Made by a program: the position numbers and the translations under genes. A stretch of DNA of 42,103 nt, from NCBI GenBank assembly GCA_944324695.1, contig CALUXH010000076.1, forward strand, positions 1 through 42,103, written 5' to 3'. Under the pieces are notes generated by a model. It was not told the DNA's origin. It saw nothing but the letters and a program-made list of their open reading frames with translations, and did no database searches. Shown here in pieces: positions 9,349 through 40,942 of this stretch (position 1 is its first letter; every line of letters starts with the position of its first letter). Source of the DNA: an uncultured Elusimicrobiales bacterium. Its GTDB lineage: Bacteria > Elusimicrobiota > Elusimicrobia > Elusimicrobiales > Elusimicrobiaceae.

Positions 9349-10545
9349 ATGACGACGACTAACGAAGAATTGAAACAAACCGAAGAAACAACCAATGAGC
9401 CCGAAATGACCATGGACGAGTTGATTGCACAACAAGAGTCTTTATCGGAACATCTCAACAAACGTGAAATTGTGGAAGTAACCGTTGTACAGATTACGGG
9501 GGACTATATTCTGGTGGATACCGGCGCGAAAAAAGAAGGCGCCATCGCCGTCAGCGAATTTGACGGTAAAACCCTGCCCGCCGTGGGCGAAAAAGTGTCT
9601 GCCGTGCTGGTCAAACGCGGCAATGATGAAAGGCATTCCATTTTATCCCATAAAAAAGCGCTGGAAATGCAGGGCTGGGACATCTGCAAACAGGCGTACG
9701 AAAATAAAGAACGCGTCAAAGGCGTTATTTTGCAGACCGTCAAAGGCGGCTATATCGTGGAAGTGTTCGGCGTGAGCGGGTTTATGCCGCTGTCCTTGTC
9801 GGAACTGCACACGGCTTATAAACACTATTTGCCCGTCGGAGCCAAAATCAGAGCAGTCATTGTAGAATTTTCCAAAGAAAAACAGAAGCTCATTATTTCC
9901 CGCAAGCAGGTGCTGGAAGAGGATGAAGCCGTCCGCCGCACCGAAGTGCTGGGCCAGATTAAAGAAGGCGATGTGCTGCGCGTTGTGGTGGCCAAGGTGG
10001 ACAAAGACCGCTTGTTCCTGCGCTTCCACGGCATTGAAGGCGTGGTGAATTTGGAAAACATCGCCTGGAAAGAGCCCGAAGCCGCTTTGGCCAATTATCG
10101 CCGCGGCCAGCGCCTGAAAGCCAAATTGCTGAAATTGGATAAAGAAACGCCGCGTTTGGAATTTGGCCTCAAACAGCTGTTCTTAAACCCGGCCGATGCT
10201 TTGCGCCGCCGCTATCCGTATAAGAGCTCCGTCAAGGCCACGATTACCAAAGTGGACCCCGAAAACGGCGTGGAATGCACCATTGGCAAAAACAATACCA
10301 AAGGTTTTATCAGCCCCTTTGAAATGGGACGTGATTTCAGCGCCCAGGAGGGGGATGTGATTTCCGCTTTGGTGGTGGGTGTGGACCCCGAAACCTTTAC
10401 GGTCAACCTCTCCGTCAAGAAATATGACCAGGTGCAAAACCGCAAAGTCGTTGCGCAGTACCTCAAACAGGCGCCGCGCCCGACCTTGGGTCAGCTTTTG
10501 GAAGATTCTTTCAAAACGGAAGAAGACGAAACGGAAGAGAAATAG
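9349..10545 (+). CDS. rpsA: 30S ribosomal protein S1 (four S1 domains)
   Basis: RNA-binding protein that helps mRNA docking on the 30S subunit. I count four S1 OB-fold repeats: residues ~44-106, ~118-187, ~203-271 and ~288-358, the second carrying the well-conserved GGYIVEVFGVSGFMPLS. At 398 residues it is the short form seen in many Firmicutes and deep-branching phyla, versus six domains in E. coli. Acidic N- and C-terminal tails flank the domains. It follows cmk-plsC and is closed by a strong terminator, so it ends the core operon. Confidence 0.93.
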   Translation: MTTTNEELKQTEETTNEPEMTMDELIAQQESLSEHLNKREIVEVTVVQITGDYILVDTGAKKEGAIAVSEFDGKTLPAVGEKVSAVLVKRGNDERHSILSHKKALEMQGWDICKQAYENKERVKGVILQTVKGGYIVEVFGVSGFMPLSLSELHTAYKHYLPVGAKIRAVIVEFSKEKQKLIISRKQVLEEDEAVRRTEVLGQIKEGDVLRVVVAKVDKDRLFLRFHGIEGVVNLENIAWKEPEAALANYRRGQRLKAKLLKLDKETPRLEFGLKQLFLNPADALRRRYPYKSSVKATITKVDPENGVECTIGKNNTKGFISPFEMGRDFSAQEGDVISALVVGVDPETFTVNLSVKKYDQVQNRKVVAQYLKQAPRPTLGQLLEDSFKTEEDETEEK

Positions 10546-29048: not shown

Positions 29049-29921
29049 ATGAAAATTCAAAGTTTGTCTGTTGTCGTACCCAATCAAAAATGTATCAATA
29101 ATTGTGCCTTTTGCGTGTCCAAAATGCATACGGAAGACTATACAAACCAGAAAGAGGGCAATGATCGGTTTTATGATTTATATGAGAGGGATTACGTGAA
29201 AAGATTGGAATTTGCCAGGGATAATGGCTGCAATACTGTTGTGCTGACGGGCAACAGCGAGCCACAGCAAAACAGGGGGTTCCTAAAAATTTTTGGCACA
29301 CTGAACAACCACCTTTCTAAACCCTTTCGAAAGATAGACATTCAGACTACGGGGGCATTACTGGACGACGAATATTTGCGCTTTTTGCGCAACCATGTCG
29401 GAGTGAACACAATCGCTTTGTCTATGTCGGATATGTTCAATGATGAGAACAATGCCAAAATTAACGGCACTCCGGAACATTTGATCGTGAACATAGGACA
29501 TTTATGTAGCGAGATCAAACGGTATGATTTCAACCTTCGTTTGTCCCTGAACTTAACAGACGTCTATAACAACAAAACCGCAGAAGAGATTTTCCGTCGT
29601 GCTAAAGAGTTGGGTGCGGACCAACTGACCTTCCGGGAGCTTTATTCTTCCGGTCTGGGTACGCCGCAGGATGAATGGATAGAGCAGCATGCGATTTGCG
29701 CACAGAAGTTGGAAGAAATTAAACAATTCATCCGTCAAAACGGTCGTCCTCTGCGGATTATGGAATACGGGCAGACATTGTATTCCGTGCAGGAAATGTC
29801 CGTGATTGTGGATGATGACTGTATGTCCACCGCTTTAAAAGAGGATATTAAATATTTGATTTTAAGGCCGGATTGCAAACTGTATTGCAATTGGGATGAC
29901 AAAGGGAGTTTGGTGTTTTAG
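29049..29921 (+). CDS. Radical SAM protein of unknown function
   Basis: 290 residues. The CX3CX2C motif that binds the S-adenosylmethionine iron-sulphur cluster is C15-INN-C19-AF-C22. TVVLTGNSEPQQNRG resembles the GGE strand, and IDIQTTG and NLRLSLNLTDVYN fit later barrel strands. C-terminal DDDCMSTALKEDIKYLILRPDCKLYCNWDD has three more Cys, possibly a partial auxiliary site. Base composition is more AT-rich than the cinA gene before it, hinting at separate origin. The ribosome binding site GGGAGA is 10 bp before ATG; 18 bp after cinA. Its own terminator separates it from cas9, so no operon link to CRISPR. Confidence 0.8.
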   Translation: MKIQSLSVVVPNQKCINNCAFCVSKMHTEDYTNQKEGNDRFYDLYERDYVKRLEFARDNGCNTVVLTGNSEPQQNRGFLKIFGTLNNHLSKPFRKIDIQTTGALLDDEYLRFLRNHVGVNTIALSMSDMFNDENNAKINGTPEHLIVNIGHLCSEIKRYDFNLRLSLNLTDVYNNKTAEEIFRRAKELGADQLTFRELYSSGLGTPQDEWIEQHAICAQKLEEIKQFIRQNGRPLRIMEYGQTLYSVQEMSVIVDDDCMSTALKEDIKYLILRPDCKLYCNWDDKGSLVF

Positions 29922-30302: not shown

Positions 30303-33300
30303 ATGGAACAAAAACAGACATTCCCTTACAGACTGGGTATTGATTTGGGCACGTCCTCCATCGGTGTGGCTTTGTATTCTTTGCAGGAAGACGGGAAAAT
30401 CAATAAACTGGAACATTTGGACAGTTATATCTTTGGCGAACCTGTCGCGCCCAAAGAAATGGTTACGTTAAATACGGCGCGTCGCAGCGCACGCCTGATA
30501 CGCAAGCAAATACAGCGCAAAGCGGCCCGTTTGAAAAAAATAGCCTATATTGCGGCTTCGTTGGGCGTTTCGGCGCAGGATTTGCGCGCCAATAAAGATG
30601 ACGTACACGCCCTGCGCGCCCATGCTTTAGAGCAAGAGCTTTCTTTGGTGCAATTGATAAAAGTGTTTTCCCATTTGGTCAAAAACAGAGGTTATAAAGG
30701 TACGTTGGAAGACGGTACTGTCGGTAAAAAATTAACGCAAACTCAGGACTTGCTGCAGGATAACAAAACCCTGGGCCAGTTGCTTTGGGAACGCAAAACC
30801 GCCGCCCAGGGGCAGCCCTGGCGCAAAGTGGAAGAGGACGGCACGTTTATTTATCGCAGTGCCGTAGAAGAAGAATTTGAACGCATTTGGCAGACGCAAA
30901 GCAAATACCATGCGGAGCTGAACCGAAATTATGCGGTCGGTTATGAAAATATGTTTCCGGATTTCCCCGGGAAAAAGGAAATTACGTTAAAAGAAGCGTT
31001 CCATTCCGCCTTGTTTTATCAGCGGCCGATTAAGTGGGAGCTGGAAACCGTGGGGACCTGCAGTATTTATCCGCAGGAGAAGCGGGCGGCGCTGAGCCAG
31101 CCGGCGTATCAGAATTACCGTTTGGCAAAGACAATCGCCAACCTGCGCATTTATAACAGGGAAGGCAAAGAAGAATATCCGCTGACGCTGGCCCAAAAAA
31201 CGCGCTTGTATCATCATGTGCAAACCGCGTATGAAGAATACACCAAAGAATCGGCTAAGTTCAGTTTTGCCAAAATTTACGCTTTGTTGGGATTGGGCGC
31301 GGACGAACGGTTTACCATAGACCGGGGGCGCTCGGCAGATGACGGTCTGAAGGGTAACACAACGGCCGCTGCTTTTTACCAAGCCGGAGTGTTAAATGAC
31401 TGGAGCAATTTGGACGATAAAGCCCAGGAGTTGGTGTGCGAATTTTTGGCTAATATTACCACCTATAGCGATATAGAAGACAATAATACTTCTTATATTG
31501 AAAAGAAATTTACGGAGCTGACGGCCAATATAAAGGCTGAAGCGGCGCAGTCCAAAGCCGCTTTGGAATTTATATTGCGTCTGCGGGAGAAACAGTTCTT
31601 TTCCAAGCATACTGATTTTCAACTGGAACAGGGGCGCGCTTCTTTCAGCGTGCCGGCTTTGCAACAGGTTACGGAAGGGTTGCTGCAAGGGGGAGAAGAA
31701 ACAGAAATTATAACCTCATTATCTGGACAAAACCAGGCGCCTGCTAAAGGGAAACTGCGTTCCGCGGCCAAAATCTTGCATCAGGAAGCGATCAATGATC
31801 CCGTTATCAGCAAGGCTTTAACGCAGTTTCACAAGGTACTGAGTTATGTGGTTAAAAAATACGGCCAGCCTGCGGAAGTGGTGGTGGAACTGTCCCGCGA
31901 GATAAAAAATTCCCTGCGCAGGCGGCAGTTCTTAGAAGGCCAGAACCGGGCGGCCGCCAAAGAACGTCTGGAAGCCGTTAAAGAGCTTCAGGCGCATCAT
32001 ATTCGCGTTACAGGGCGCAATATTGAAAAGTATCTTTTGTGGCAGGAACAGGATAAAACCTGTCCGTACAGCGGCAAAGTGATTTCCATGGCGCAGGCTT
32101 TTGACGAAAAGCAAACCCAGGTGGACCATATTATTCCCCAACGCGGGGAAATCGGCGGACCCAATGTGTTTGAAAACAAAGTTTTGGCTTTTACCCAGGA
32201 AAACAAAGACAAAAGCAACCGTCTGCCGTATGAATGGAAATTTAAAGAGGACATAGACAGCTATCTTTCCTGGCAAAAAGAAAATAAAGCCAAAAAGAAA
32301 AAAGGGAAAGATGTGACGGCTTTTGGCCAACATAGTCCTTTAATCAATTTTGTTTCTCACCTTTGGGGGTTGTATGCCAAGGAAAAACGCGGCTATTATT
32401 CCCAACGTGAACGCAAACAAAAACCAACGCAAAAAGGTGCGCGCATTCTGCGCAAAATCAATAATTTGCTCAGCACCCCTGCCCAAATAAGAAGAGATTT
32501 CTCCAACCGCCAAAATCAACAGACGGCCTGGATAGGCAAAGTGGTGCTGGCGTGGTGTGAAGATGTTTGTCCGAAGGTTAGCCCTTCTTTCGGCGCGTTG
32601 ACGGCCTATTTGCGCAGACAGCTGCATTTTGACCGGATATTGCCTTCCATTCGCCTGCAGGAAGGAAAAACGCTGTTTGATAAAGACGACAAACCAATAG
32701 ACGGGGAAAAATGGAAAGAACTCTTCGCCTCTCCGCGCCTGGGTTGGGAACAGGCACGTGCGCTGAAAGAAGATTTTGAAAAATATTGCGCCGAACAACC
32801 GCAGAAGACCAATACCGCAAGTGACCGGAAGGAATTGTTTGAGTCTTTCTGTGCGGAAATGCGCGCCGGAATGCAGTTTAACAAACGCTGCGACCATCGC
32901 CATCATGCCGTGGACGCGGCCGTTATCGGCCTGTGCAGCCGGTCCGTATTGAAGAAAGCGGCGGACCACCATGCACAATATGGTACGTTGCAGTTGATCC
33001 CGGGCTTGGATAAAGACGGAAACAGAGATTGCGGTAAAGATATTGCCGGCTTTACGCTGGAAGAGATTCCCCAGTATGCCCAAATTAAAAAAGAAGTCCA
33101 AAATAGGCTTTATGAGTATGTTGTATGGCATAAGCCGGATCATTTCCCCAGCGGGAAATTATTTGATGAGACGGCTTACCGTGCCGTTATGAAAGACGGG
33201 ACGGAACGCTTTGTGAAACGGGCTTCTTTGGACAGCTTTTTAAAACCCACACCGGAGAAGACCGTTAAAAATATAGAGCTTTTGGTGTTTGGTGATACGC

Positions 33301-33848
33301 TGAAACGGGAAATTATCCGTCAATTTAAAGAGCGTTTGGCCCAGGGCCTTGGCCAGGAGGAAGCCCTCTGCGGAAGCAAGGATAATCCCGCCGACGGTAT
33401 TATCTACCGCGGACATAAACTGAAAAAAGTGAAATATATGTATTTAACCGGGCGCGGAATACGCAGTTTTGACAATAATGCGGATAAAAAATTATCCTCA
33501 ACGGATAAAATGGGCCGCATACATGAAAAGGCCTATCAGAATTCTGGCTATGCCTGTATGGATTTTGACGCTAAGACAGGCAAACGGAAAGACTTAATTC
33601 CGTTGTGGAAATATGATATCCAACGTCAAATTCCTCTTGGCGTTATACGCATTTTTATAGGAGATATACTGTACAACACACAGGATAAAAAATTTTATAA
33701 GGTGCAAAGATTTAGTGCACAGGTCGGGTTATTCTTGCGTGAAACAACGGAGGTACAGCCTGCGGATGTGGGTGCCTCCAATATCAAAAATTACAAACTG
33801 GTATCCAGCCGCGCTGATATCGGAAAAATAAAAGAGGAAAATGCCTAA
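30303..33848 (+). CDS. cas9: CRISPR-associated endonuclease Cas9, type II-C
   Basis: RNA-guided nuclease that cuts both strands of target DNA with crRNA and tracrRNA. 1181 residues, mid-sized. Order: RuvC-I with YRLGIDLGTSSIGVAL (D14), Arg-rich bridge helix ~57-80 (NTARRSARLIRKQIQRKAAR), REC lobe, RuvC-II VVVELSREI (E529), HNH with QVDHIIPQ (D608, H609) and NKDKSNRLPYEW, RuvC-III DHRHHAVDAAVIGL (H868, D871), then the PAM-interacting C-terminus. All catalytic residues are present, so it should be active. Ribosome binding site TTAGGAG, 7 bp before ATG. The last 8 bp overlap cas1. No csn2 or cas4 is present, hence subtype II-C. Confidence 0.98.
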   Translation: MEQKQTFPYRLGIDLGTSSIGVALYSLQEDGKINKLEHLDSYIFGEPVAPKEMVTLNTARRSARLIRKQIQRKAARLKKIAYIAASLGVSAQDLRANKDDVHALRAHALEQELSLVQLIKVFSHLVKNRGYKGTLEDGTVGKKLTQTQDLLQDNKTLGQLLWERKTAAQGQPWRKVEEDGTFIYRSAVEEEFERIWQTQSKYHAELNRNYAVGYENMFPDFPGKKEITLKEAFHSALFYQRPIKWELETVGTCSIYPQEKRAALSQPAYQNYRLAKTIANLRIYNREGKEEYPLTLAQKTRLYHHVQTAYEEYTKESAKFSFAKIYALLGLGADERFTIDRGRSADDGLKGNTTAAAFYQAGVLNDWSNLDDKAQELVCEFLANITTYSDIEDNNTSYIEKKFTELTANIKAEAAQSKAALEFILRLREKQFFSKHTDFQLEQGRASFSVPALQQVTEGLLQGGEETEIITSLSGQNQAPAKGKLRSAAKILHQEAINDPVISKALTQFHKVLSYVVKKYGQPAEVVVELSREIKNSLRRRQFLEGQNRAAAKERLEAVKELQAHHIRVTGRNIEKYLLWQEQDKTCPYSGKVISMAQAFDEKQTQVDHIIPQRGEIGGPNVFENKVLAFTQENKDKSNRLPYEWKFKEDIDSYLSWQKENKAKKKKGKDVTAFGQHSPLINFVSHLWGLYAKEKRGYYSQRERKQKPTQKGARILRKINNLLSTPAQIRRDFSNRQNQQTAWIGKVVLAWCEDVCPKVSPSFGALTAYLRRQLHFDRILPSIRLQEGKTLFDKDDKPIDGEKWKELFASPRLGWEQARALKEDFEKYCAEQPQKTNTASDRKELFESFCAEMRAGMQFNKRCDHRHHAVDAAVIGLCSRSVLKKAADHHAQYGTLQLIPGLDKDGNRDCGKDIAGFTLEEIPQYAQIKKEVQNRLYEYVVWHKPDHFPSGKLFDETAYRAVMKDGTERFVKRASLDSFLKPTPEKTVKNIELLVFGDTLKREIIRQFKERLAQGLGQEEALCGSKDNPADGIIYRGHKLKKVKYMYLTGRGIRSFDNNADKKLSSTDKMGRIHEKAYQNSGYACMDFDAKTGKRKDLIPLWKYDIQRQIPLGVIRIFIGDILYNTQDKKFYKVQRFSAQVGLFLRETTEVQPADVGASNIKNYKLVSSRADIGKIKEENA

Positions 33849-34821
33849 CCAACATATAATCAGCATAGAGCGGGAAGCCCGTTTGTCCGTAGATACGGGG
33901 CGCCTAAAAATCTTCTTTCCTCCGAAAGAAGAAACGCATTATATCGCGCTGATGGATATAGCGGTGTTGTTGTTGGCGCATGGACAAATCAGCTTGTCTA
34001 TGAGCGTGTTGCGGGAATTGGCGCAGAATGGAGCTGTGGTGCTGACCACTGATGAAAAGTTTATGCCGTGCGCCCTGAGCTTGCCGTTGGCGGCGAATAT
34101 AGACGGAGCTCGGCGCCCGCATCTGCAAAGCAAATACGGCGCGGACCAAAACGGCATATGGTGGGCTCAGTTGGTACAGACCAAAATTGCCGGCCAGGCC
34201 GCCACGGCCCTGCATTTTGATCCGGTGCTGGGAGGAAAGCTCCGACAAATTTCGGAGCATATATCTCCAGGGGATAAAGAATGCAGGGAAGCGCAGGCCG
34301 CTCAACACTACTGGCCTGCATTTTTCAAAAGTTTAGGACTGAGCAGCTGTATTCGTGAGAAACAGGGAGCGTCTGACCCGGTAAATATCTCGTTAAATTA
34401 TGCGTATGCCGTCCTGCGTGCAACGGTGTCCCGGGCTTTGGCCAGCGCCGGCTTGTGTTTGAATTTGGGATTGGGGCATTGCCGTAAAGATAATCCTTTT
34501 AATTTGGCCGATGATTTTATAGAACCCTTCCGCTATATTGCGGATGAAGCGGTATGGGGGGTGTTTTCCCAAACGCAGGCAGACTCTTTTACGCCGGAAA
34601 TTAAAAAACAAATTTTACGTGCCGTTTTACAAAGCCAGGTCGGCATAGCGGGACGTTCATACCGGTTGTTTCACGCCGTCGATTATGCCGTGAATAGTTT
34701 TTGTATTTCTTTAGAAGACCCGCGGAGAAAACTGCAGCTGCCGCATATGCCGCTCATACCGGGGAAGAAAGCCAACCCTTCGCTTTTTCCGCCGGTTCAA
34801 TATGAATATGAAACCGAATAG
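33841..34821 (+). CDS. cas1: CRISPR integrase Cas1
   Basis: Catalytic subunit of the Cas1-Cas2 spacer integrase. 326 residues. Metal ligands in family context: E150 in CREAQAAQHYW, H213 in GLGHCRKDNPFNLADD and E228 in DFIEPFR. The segment VNISLNYAYAVLRATVSRALASAGL is the typical type II form. It starts inside the end of cas9 (8-bp overlap) and ends 20 bp inside cas2, so the three genes are translationally linked. Confidence 0.97.
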   Translation: MPNQHIISIEREARLSVDTGRLKIFFPPKEETHYIALMDIAVLLLAHGQISLSMSVLRELAQNGAVVLTTDEKFMPCALSLPLAANIDGARRPHLQSKYGADQNGIWWAQLVQTKIAGQAATALHFDPVLGGKLRQISEHISPGDKECREAQAAQHYWPAFFKSLGLSSCIREKQGASDPVNISLNYAYAVLRATVSRALASAGLCLNLGLGHCRKDNPFNLADDFIEPFRYIADEAVWGVFSQTQADSFTPEIKKQILRAVLQSQVGIAGRSYRLFHAVDYAVNSFCISLEDPRRKLQLPHMPLIPGKKANPSLFPPVQYEYETE

Positions 34822-35152
34822 CTGGCGCATTATGTGGGTGATGGCCGTGTTTGATTTGCCGACTCAGACCAAAATCCAGCGTAAGCGTTACGCCGGGTTT
34901 CGTAAGTTGCTGTTGCAACATGGTTTTACCATGATGCAGTTTTCCGTCTATCTGCGTAATATGCCCACGATACACGCCGCCCAAGCCTTGGTCAAAAGAA
35001 TCGGTCCGCATACCCCGCCGCAGGGAAAATGTGCTTTTGTACTGATTACCGACAAACAATATGGCATGACCAAAAACTTTTATGGTCCTGCTCCCGCGCA
35101 ACAAAAAATCCCCAAAAAGTATGAGCAACTCATACTTTTTGAGGATTTATAA
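34802..35152 (+). CDS. cas2: CRISPR-associated protein Cas2
   Basis: Structural partner of Cas1. 116 residues; ferredoxin-like fold with first strand MWVMAVFDLP (D18), then KRYAGFRKLLLQHGFTMMQFSVYLRN and the late AFVLITDKQYGM strand. Start ATG 34802 overlaps cas1 by 20 bp; ATG 34808 is possible. The last ~45 bp (YEQLILFEDL and upstream) form a long DNA inverted repeat that probably terminates the tracrRNA transcribed from the other strand. Confidence 0.95.
   Translation: MNMKPNSWRIMWVMAVFDLPTQTKIQRKRYAGFRKLLLQHGFTMMQFSVYLRNMPTIHAAQALVKRIGPHTPPQGKCAFVLITDKQYGMTKNFYGPAPAQQKIPKKYEQLILFEDL
35106..35148 (-). terminator. Long hairpin in the cas2 3' end, tracrRNA terminator
   Basis: A 20-position stem with one mismatch: AAATCC-C-CAAAAAGTATGAG pairs with CTCATACTTTTTG-A-GGATTT, loop CAA. 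On the minus strand the stem runs into six T, the form of an intrinsic terminator. It may also stop plus-strand cas transcripts. Confidence 0.7.
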
Positions 35153-35238
35153 AACGAATAGAAATGGAGATAAACTCCTTTGCGGGTTTTTAAACCCTTG
35201 TTACCTAAGTTGAGGCACAAATAAGAATAAGGTTTTCT
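35106..35238 (-). ncRNA. tracrRNA (type II-C), minus strand
   Basis: Read on the minus strand, 35234-35200 is an anti-repeat. It pairs with the crRNA repeat (GTTCCTATTAGGCACC...) through an 11-bp block ACCTTATTCTT:AAGAATAAGGT, an internal loop (ATTT against CG), GTGCC:GGCAC, then TAGG:CCTA and AAC:GTT with a bulged T. Downstream follow hairpin GGGTTTAAAAACCC (35197-35184) and hairpin GGAG-N5-CTCC (35178-35166), as in known tracrRNA tails. Predicted start ~35238; the 3' end is either in the T-rich stretch near 35150 or at the strong hairpin in cas2 (~35103). Anti-repeat plus promoter plus hairpins make the call firm; ends are inferred. Confidence 0.88.
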
Positions 35239-35244
35239 GTAATT

Positions 35245-35274
35245 ATTCTAGCAAAAATATTTATTTTTTCGCAA
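35245..35274 (-). promoter_or_regulatory. tracrRNA promoter (TTGCGA-18-TAGAAT, extended -10)
   Basis: On the minus strand TTGCGA (35274-35269), 18 bp, TGC-TAGAAT (35250-35245). Start expected 6-7 bases downstream. It sits in the AT-rich leader between the array and the anti-repeat. Confidence 0.7.
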
Positions 35275-35289: not shown

Positions 35290-38200
35290 AATATTTTACC
35301 TTATTCTTCGGTGCCTAATAGGAACAACGAATACGCCGCCCCCGTAAAATACTTTAATATTTTACCTTATTCTTCGGTGCCTAATAGGAACAAGTGGCTG
35401 TTCGCCGATATGAGCGAGCTCAATATTTTACCTTATTCTTCGGTGCCTAATAGGAACCCTGCCAGCAATCAGCTGACCGCTGGACACAATATTTTACCTT
35501 ATTCTTCGGTGCCTAATAGGAACGTAAAGCGCTTGCAAAAAGCGTGGGTTTTTAATATTTTACCTTATTCTTCGGTGCCTAATAGGAACCGGCAACGTTA
35601 CCGCTTCGTCGGCGATGTCAATATTTTACCTTATTCTTCGGTGCCTAATAGGAACCAGTAATGTGTATGGGTATTATTCAAATGAAATATTTTACCTTAT
35701 TCTTCGGTGCCTAATAGGAACGGCGACGGAATTTGACCGTTGAAGAAATTAAATATTTTACCTTATTCTTCGGTGCCTAATAGGAACCGTAACGGACAAA
35801 TCCCCGTTAATGCTAACAATATTTTACCTTATTCTTCGGTGCCTAATAGGAACAAAAAATTACGGACGCGCCGCGGCCCAGACAATATTTTACCTTATTC
35901 TTCGGTGCCTAATAGGAACTGATTAACAGCACGTATAAGGATAATCCGTTAATATTTTACCTTATTCTTCGGTGCCTAATAGGAACTTCAAGGTATGAAG
36001 GAATTGTCATACAATCAATATTTTACCTTATTCTTCGGTGCCTAATAGGAACATAAACGGATTTAACTATGGCAAACGAAAAAATATTTTACCTTATTCT
36101 TCGGTGCCTAATAGGAACTGGAGCAATGGAACTCCGACCACTCCAATAAATATTTTACCTTATTCTTCGGTGCCTAATAGGAACAAGCGACGGGAGTTAT
36201 CGGGCGGCGACGGAAATATTTTACCTTATTCTTCGGTGCCTAATAGGAACGATTTGTGCCACGGCTGCTTTCACAAACAAAATATTTTACCTTATTCTTC
36301 GGTGCCTAATAGGAACTATCTATTCGGAACTGCCCAACATTATAACAATATTTTACCTTATTCTTCGGTGCCTAATAGGAACAAAACCCACATAGCACGC
36401 CGTTCTATTTGCAATATTTTACCTTATTCTTCGGTGCCTAATAGGAACGTCGTGGGTGCGATAGTTCAGCGCGTCAAAAATATTTTACCTTATTCTTCGG
36501 TGCCTAATAGGAACCTTGCTTTGCGGGTAAATCAGGCGGCTGTTAATATTTTACCTTATTCTTCGGTGCCTAATAGGAACCTTCAGACCGGTGCATTGCA
36601 TCGTCTTATAAATATTTTACCTTATTCTTCGGTGCCTAATAGGAACATTGACTCTGAAGGCGAAATCATTGCCGGAAATATTTTACCTTATTCTTCGGTG
36701 CCTAATAGGAACTGCAATTTAATTATCGCCATTTAGAAAACCAATATTTTACCTTATTCTTCGGTGCCTAATAGGAACTGCCCCGTTGCCGGATTTTTAA
36801 ATTTTTCAAATATTTTACCTTATTCTTCGGTGCCTAATAGGAACCGCCCCCGTGGGTTGCCGCCCGTAGTGTGGAATATTTTACCTTATTCTTCGGTGCC
36901 TAATAGGAACCACGAAAAACGACGCGTCAGGCTGGTACGTAATATTTTACCTTATTCTTCGGTGCCTAATAGGAACAAGTGCTATAATGAGTTCTTCAGA
37001 GACCAGAATATTTTACCTTATTCTTCGGTGCCTAATAGGAACGATGGCGCGCCTGTTCTCCGACGCTTTCAAAATATTTTACCTTATTCTTCGGTGCCTA
37101 ATAGGAACTGCGAATTTGCCGCAAGTGTTGGCTTTTTGAATATTTTACCTTATTCTTCGGTGCCTAATAGGAACAACAAAAACAATCTGGCGTGGAACTC
37201 AATCAATATTTTACCTTATTCTTCGGTGCCTAATAGGAACTGGCACTTACCTGCGCTTCTTCAAATTTTTAATATTTTACCTTATTCTTCGGTGCCTAAT
37301 AGGAACGTAGGAAGCGACAGCGCACCTGTTGGTATTAATATTTTACCTTATTCTTCGGTGCCTAATAGGAACTTTCCAATAACAGGTGCGCTGTCGCTCC
37401 CCAATATTTTACCTTATTCTTCGGTGCCTAATAGGAACTGCATCGCACAAGGGGCATTTGCTTTCGGGAATATTTTACCTTATTCTTCGGTGCCTAATAG
37501 GAACCTCTGTTTTCTTTCTCTCTCCACTTCTTCCAATATTTTACCTTATTCTTCGGTGCCTAATAGGAACTATTCCTTGTGTGCCGCTTACACTTTCTCC
37601 AATATTTTACCTTATTCTTCGGTGCCTAATAGGAACTCCTAAATTTGGGGGGCGGTGAGGTTGTCCAATATTTTACCTTATTCTTCGGTGCCTAATAGGA
37701 ACATTAGCCAGTTGTTGCTCTTTGAACTGTGCAATATTTTACCTTATTCTTCGGTGCCTAATAGGAACTTTAAAGACCCCGAACAATGCACCGGGCTGAA
37801 TATTTTACCTTATTCTTCGGTGCCTAATAGGAACTGCTGTCCGGTCCGTGTCGTCGGTGTATTCAATATTTTACCTTATTCTTCGGTGCCTAATAGGAAC
37901 TTTCGCACCGTTGCGGCCCTTGTACATACAAATATTTTACCTTATTCTTCGGTGCCTAATAGGAACCAAATTATGCTTATATTTTAAGCAAAATATAATA
38001 TTTTACCTTATTCTTCGGTGCCTAATAGGAACACGAACGCGAAGTGCCTGTATCCCGTCGCTAATATTTTACCTTATTCTTCGGTGCCTAATAGGAACTA
38101 TACCTACAAGTTGCTGGACTGGGCCAAAAATATTTTACCTTATTCTTCGGTGCCTAATAGGAACTTGGGGTACATAGCAGGCAGCCACTTGCAAAATATT

Positions 38201-38692
38201 TTACCTTATTCTTCGGTGCCTAATAGGAACATTATTGTGGGGGTTATGTTTTTCCTTATGAATATTTTACCTTATTCTTCGGTGCCTAATAGGAACTGGC
38301 GGTCAGCTTGACCACCGTAGACACCAAATATTTTACCTTATTCTTCGGTGCCTAATAGGAACTAATACGAAGAAGGATGCGTCAGGTTGGTAAATATTTT
38401 ACCTTATTCTTCGGTGCCTAATAGGAACAGGGCGTCTGCCCCGAGCTCTGCTGAACAGAATATTTTACCTTATTCTTCGGTGCCTAATAGGAACGTAAAA
38501 GTTCATGGATATTTCATTATGAATAATATTTTACCTTATTCTTCGGTGCCTAATAGGAACTTCCAAACAAAAGTAAAAATATTTCGTTTAAATATTTTAC
38601 CTTATTCTTCGGTGCCTAATAGGAACAAGATTGTTAATGACTGGTATACGCCGGAAAATATTTTACCTTATTCTTCGGTACCTAATAGGAAC
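35290..38692 (-). CRISPR. CRISPR array, 52 repeats of 36 nt
   Basis: Repeats start at 35290 and recur every 66 bp (one interval of 67 at 35884-35951), giving 52 copies and 51 spacers of 30 nt (spacer 10 has 31). On the plus strand the repeat starts AATATTTTACC and ends CCTAATAGGAAC; only the last copy at 38657 differs (GGTACC for GGTGCC). The crRNA strand is the minus strand, GTTCCTATTAGG...GGTAAAATATT: it pairs with the tracrRNA, and its 3' end carries a TAAAAT -10 box like the repeat-borne promoters of Neisseria and Campylobacter II-C arrays. The leader-like AT-rich DNA is on the cas2 side; degenerate repeats lie at the far end. Confidence 0.99.
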
Positions 38693-38722
38693 AAAACTAT
38701 GACGCGGACAATATAACCTGCG

Positions 38723-38796
38723 AATATTTTTACCTTATTTCTCGCTATCTCCTCTGAATTCAATATTCTATTTTATTCTTGGTCGCTAACAACAGT
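38723..38796 (-). repeat. Two degenerate CRISPR repeats at the array's distal end
   Basis: After a normal 30-nt spacer (38693-38722), 38723 begins AATATTTTTACCTTATTTCT, a decayed repeat losing its second half. 38762-38796 (AATATTCTATTTTATTCTTG, then GTCGCTAAC) is a second decayed copy, 39 bp further. Confidence 0.7.
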
Positions 38797-38800
38797 TTTA

Positions 38801-40693: not shown

Positions 40694-40942
40694 ATGCCTG
40701 TTAAGAAAACCGTGAAAAAAACCGCCGCTAAAAAACCGGCGAAAAAAGTGGCCGTAAAAAAGGCCGCCGTAAAGAAACCGGCGAAAAAGGCCTGCGCCAA
40801 AAAAGCGTGTGCCAAAAAAGCCTGCGCCAAAAAAACGACGAAAAAAGTGGCCGTGAAAAAAGCTGCCGCTAAAAAACCGGCCAAGAAAGTCACCAAAAAA
40901 GTCGCTAAAAAACCGGCGAAAAAAGTGGCGAAAAAGAAATAA
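40694..40942 (+). CDS. Histone H1-like lysine/alanine-rich DNA-binding protein
   Basis: 82 residues made almost only of Lys, Ala, Val, Pro, Thr and Cys: KKPAKKVAVKKAA and CAKKACAKKACAKK repeats. It has no other domain. It resembles eukaryote-like H1 tails of chlamydial Hc1/Hc2 and other bacterial nucleoid proteins, so non-specific DNA compaction is likely. The run of three ACAKK units (four Cys in all) is unusual and may respond to redox state. Ribosome binding site AGGAGA, 6 bp before ATG; strong promoter; monocistronic. Confidence 0.85.
   Translation: MPVKKTVKKTAAKKPAKKVAVKKAAVKKPAKKACAKKACAKKACAKKTTKKVAVKKAAAKKPAKKVTKKVAKKPAKKVAKKK

Follow-up and report, generated by a model that had tools for sequence, protein, structure and literature searches.

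The minus strand at positions 35238-35103 of the stretch analyzed here almost certainly carries the tracrRNA gene of a type II-C locus with cas9, cas1, and cas2. This stretch (the window; 42,103 nt) is a contig from a metagenome-derived Elusimicrobiales genome (Elusimicrobiota, uncultured gut bacterium), one near relative of which is Candidatus Avelusimicrobium; its assembly comprises 1.41 Mb and is 83% complete. Between cas2 and the CRISPR array, we found an anti-repeat that is complementary to, and covaries with, its cognate repeat, together with a promoter, downstream hairpins, and, inside the end of cas2, a terminator (Table 1). The pairing, its covariation, its conservation, the strand, and selection on the terminator can all be read from the sequence. 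The tracrRNA gene itself is ordinary and clearly identified, and the new detail is the overlap of its terminator with cas2.

Table 1. Coordinates of the type II-C locus and its RNA features within the window.
Feature	Position	Strand	Details
cas9	30303..33848	+	1181 aa; RuvC and HNH motifs present
cas1 (type II)	33841..34821	+
cas2	34802..35152	+
tracrRNA gene (predicted transcript, about 136 nt)	35103..35238	-	covariance model match 35103-35237; MFE z -6.4 (6.4 sd below shuffles)
rho-independent tracrRNA terminator	35106..35148	-	20-bp stem and U tail; entirely within the last cas2 codons
second short hairpin GGAG..CUCC	35166..35178	-	length varies; both-sided change in relatives
first (nexus-like) hairpin GGGUU..AACCC	35184..35197	-
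anti-repeat	35200..35233	-	11+6+4+3 bp with nt 1-28 of the crRNA repeat
tracrRNA promoter	35245..35274	-	-35 TTGCGA, 18-nt spacer ending TGC, -10 TAGAAT
CRISPR array	35290..38692	-	52 repeats of 36 nt (51 identical), 30-nt spacers; crRNA strand minus
final spacer and decayed repeat remnants	38693..38800	-	leader-distal (old) array end

The system is an ordinary type II-C CRISPR-Cas9. Its Cas9 carries the RuvC and HNH domains and matched TIGR01865 at 395.7 bits (cut-off, 100) as well as HNH_4, RuvC_III, and Cas9_a, and its Cas1 belongs to the type II family (TIGR03639 cas1_NMENI, 199.1 bits; cut-off, 120). The gene set consists of cas9, cas1, and cas2 alone, as in type II-C: csn2 (II-A) and cas4 (II-B) are absent, no other cas gene occurs in the cas2-array gap or beside cas9 on its upstream side, and the assembly holds no second cas9. 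A Cas1 search found no relatives in viral contigs. The upstream neighbor of cas9 (29049-29921, plus strand) encodes a radical SAM protein, which is not a cas family, and a small Lys/Ala-rich repeat protein that resembles histone H1-like proteins is encoded at 40694-40942 (plus strand).

The sequence-only reading had placed a tracrRNA gene here, with a repeat:anti-repeat duplex of 11 + 5 + 4 + 3 bp. The placement holds, as does the interrupted duplex with its bulge, but the second helix has 6 bp and is flanked by internal loops on both sides, and the bulged base is a single U. With -29.0 kcal/mol (RNAduplex), the anti-repeat outranks every other 40-mer outside the array on either strand of the window, where the runner-up reaches -25.7 kcal/mol (mean, -11.1; sd, 3.3), and none of 400 shuffles of the cas2-array gap pairs as strongly (lowest, -23.5 kcal/mol). 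A search of the same genome with the anti-repeat pattern returned one match with 0 mismatches, namely the tracrRNA site; all other matches have 3 mismatches and equal the control in number. A better anti-repeat elsewhere in the genome, for which the earlier reading had advised looking, was not found. It is thus extremely improbable that the true tracrRNA lies elsewhere, e.g., on the upstream side of cas9, its place in other II-C loci: loci of another Cas9 clade in the phylum do carry it there, 80-180 nt from cas9, and the assembly is incomplete, but the 1.41 Mb at hand show no second anti-repeat, nothing as good occurs upstream of the window's cas9, and the anti-repeat beside cas2 is conserved.

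The promoter claimed for the tracrRNA was located with its elements as described. Its score alone is weak and near chance (3 promoter-like sites vs 1.8 expected), and its place, -10 box, and flanks are kept in relatives. The two short hairpins reported downstream are present, but a third, the terminator inside cas2, had been missed. Similarly, the gene had been called antisense to the cas genes, which is correct for its direction, whereas the overlap covers only about 47 nt at the end of cas2. For this RNA, Rfam gave no gathering-level match, and its low-threshold matches were those expected by chance.

The stem at the end of cas2 is the strongest terminator of the region. Synonymous recoding of the last cas2 codons produced an equally stable hairpin in 0 of 3000 cases, and across the window's clade the z score of the stem ranges from -3.0 to -7.9, except in locus L024, whose cas2 tail has z +0.8 and which carries an alternative hairpin with a U tail directly behind cas2. 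For nine cas2 genes from other clades, the values lie between -1.8 and +1.5. Changes in the cas2 tail are often matched by pair-keeping changes on the opposite side. Judged from these sequences, the terminator-cas2 overlap is under selection. It is a clear if small example of dual coding, which survives amino-acid changes and is gone where another terminator took over.

The tracrRNA occupies the same place and strand in 11 further loci of the same family (L029-L037, L026 of genome G137, and L024 of G101). Elsewhere in the phylum, three loci whose Cas9 is 47, 41, and 36% identical to the window's by tblastn (L077, L078, and L079 of G291, G320, and G314, respectively) again have their best anti-repeat, matching their own repeats, in the cas2-array gap, although these repeats differ widely. 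In an alignment of nine loci, 95.2% of cells are paired, dropping to 41-50% in slid-strand controls. The covariation in relatives proposed as a check was strongly positive, with 13 base pairs changed on both sides compared to 3.5 in shuffles (0/500). An alignment with L078 and L079 misplaced their anti-repeats; both were left out of this pair count and assessed by the duplex scan. In addition, a covariance model (R1), whose training set is nine of the loci it recovers, gave full-length matches (E <= 3e-17) in 13 of 336 phylum genomes, with one strong match per genome, all 13 beside cas2 and none elsewhere. Two loci more distant than these 13 keep the layout even though their repeat is entirely different, and the anti-repeat fits that repeat. 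R1 also gave weak matches in G254 and G264, which are hairpins resembling terminators and have no cas9 close by. L088/L064 (G101) has an interrupted cas9 frame (open frame of 1001 aa, with stops beyond) and keeps cas1, cas2, and the tracrRNA, and G050 holds two different type II loci, on contigs C31 and C8 (L031 and L080), from distinct Cas9 clades.

Protospacers helped to assign the strand. For eleven distinct window spacers, matches were found in congeneric genomes, and many of these fall in a single prophage-like region of G102 (G102:C3:250000-269000, L121), where at least 8 protospacers correspond to window spacers and one to a spacer of G043. Against phage records, the array gave a single 26-nt match only. 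Read in the minus (crRNA) orientation, 9 of the 11 distinct protospacers have a 3' flank of NNCA (about 1e-9); position 3 is C in 9 of the 11 and position 4 is A in 10, and the 5' flanks show no motif. A PAM near NNCA is therefore likely from these flanks. Given that Cas9 PAMs are located 3' of the protospacer (PMC3936727), crRNAs would come from the minus strand, and the tracrRNA likewise. In several congeneric genomes, spacer 19 matches an endolysin-like gene (M15 peptidase-like, a name given by eye from the sequence), with CACA as the PAM; its match to the same gene in its own genome (G000:C62, about 10392-10420; L120) has two mismatches and CATA for CACA, as expected for a tolerated target. 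In G043 (L030), whose Cas9 is 85% identical to the window's, three protospacers, too few to judge, have the 3' flanks CCCG, TG(T/C)(A/G), and GGCG, and PAM preference may thus differ between close relatives.

The side of the PAM is the ground on which we reject a plus-strand tracrRNA, i.e., transcription of both array and tracrRNA in the cas direction. The opposite strands would also form the duplex, as would any repeat with an inverted copy, and the terminator hairpin is nearly symmetric, such that R1 gave partial plus-strand matches at 35104-35148; the orientation of the promoter and U tail and the -10-like box at the end of the minus-strand repeat nevertheless argue against this reading too, and we regard it as very improbable.

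The minus-strand direction agrees with the repeats themselves. On the crRNA strand, the window repeat reads GTTCCTATTAGGCACCGAAGAATAAGGTAAAATATT, with a -10-like TAAAAT close to its 3' end, and the repeats of the window and its relatives end with the boxes TAAAAT, TAGAAT, or TATAAT; these promoter-like boxes and the PAM side both suggest an array running opposite to the cas operon. The repeats of L077 (G291) end in AAACGGTTT, without such a box, and repeat-borne promoters may therefore be lost there. In the L037 array, two repeats (units at 2524 and 2559 downstream of cas2) are joined directly with no spacer between them. All 11 protospacer-matched spacers fall within the 28 nearest cas2, of 52 (P about 4e-4), and spacer 46 has one further match with four mismatches. 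Since the matched spacers cluster near cas2 and decayed repeats occupy the far end, the young end of the array adjoins the tracrRNA gene, which may also act as a leader. That the site is merely a leader with a decayed inverted repeat, giving rise to no RNA, fits this location; yet changes in the anti-repeat track the repeat, conservation extends to the hairpins and the terminator, and in L024 another terminator, outside cas2, has taken over, all of which make this explanation highly unlikely.

We therefore retain the minus-strand tracrRNA, and by analogy with the known type II mechanism, the following steps can be proposed. Transcription of both crRNAs and tracrRNA would run on the minus strand, against the direction of cas9, cas1, and cas2, and the tracrRNA would stop at the terminator stem encoded in the last cas2 codons. 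Each crRNA repeat would pair through its 5' 28 nt with the anti-repeat, RNase III would trim the duplex, and Cas9 would bind the dual RNA via the duplex and the hairpins behind it, and then cut DNA beside a PAM near NNCA. Each repeat probably starts its own crRNA, given its -10-like end and the experimental precedent in C. jejuni. We found no terminator between the array and the tracrRNA gene; because the array is read toward the latter, read-through from a repeat promoter would yield one joined RNA (newest spacer, repeat, linker, anti-repeat, and tail), whose predicted fold brings its own repeat and anti-repeat together as a duplex. That this RNA serves as a natural single-guide RNA is unlikely; if true, it would favor the newest spacer. 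Collectively, these analyses give one Cas9 clade of uncultured Elusimicrobiota from the gut a likely PAM and a guide RNA that is complete and assigned to a strand, such that the system can be tested directly.

Within Elusimicrobiota, the position of the tracrRNA follows the Cas9 clade. Other II-C loci of the phylum (L081-L085 and L041) share the cas9-cas1-cas2-array order and a minus-strand anti-repeat, but their Cas9 is only about 25% identical to the window's, the anti-repeat lies 80-180 nt upstream of cas9, and cas2 lacks the terminator stem. In a maximum-likelihood Cas9 tree, which carries a long-branch warning, one change of tracrRNA position suffices in 98% of bootstrap trees. The position labels of L080 and L086 are tentative (weak anti-repeat candidates), and L028 was labeled "between" though its contig ends inside cas1; it should carry no label, and the change count stays the same.

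The sequence-only reading had hinted that the location is unusual for II-C, and this is true relative to part of the published systems. CcCas9 (Clostridium cellulolyticum), FpCas9 (Flavobacterium), Riemerella (R. anatipestifer), and EHCas9 have the same gene set and a dual-RNA guide (PMC7038990, PMC10309648, PMC5006608, PMC10281378), and the C. cellulolyticum array runs opposite to the cas genes, as is probable for the window, but in these loci the tracrRNA is upstream of cas9. Campylobacter jejuni, C. coli, and Helicobacter, in contrast, share the window's arrangement: they are type II-C, with 36-nt repeats ending in a -10-like box (GGTAAAAT in C. jejuni, GGTAAAATATT in the window), and their tracrRNA has its own -10, lies downstream of the array, and changes in step with the repeat (PMC3656092, PMC4607530). 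The terminator-cas2 overlap is not described in that literature. Since the published position is downstream of the array and the array has the opposite direction, the C. jejuni tracrRNA would lie between array and cas2. This likeness is one of repeats, tracrRNA, and placement rather than of Cas9 comparison, and repeat and tracrRNA form a perfect duplex of 24 nt in C. jejuni but an interrupted one in the window. Fonfara et al. reported that II-B and II-C arrays run opposite to cas and that tracrRNA position and direction vary within II-C (PMC3936727). The position is therefore not new, and both positions are present among published II-C loci.
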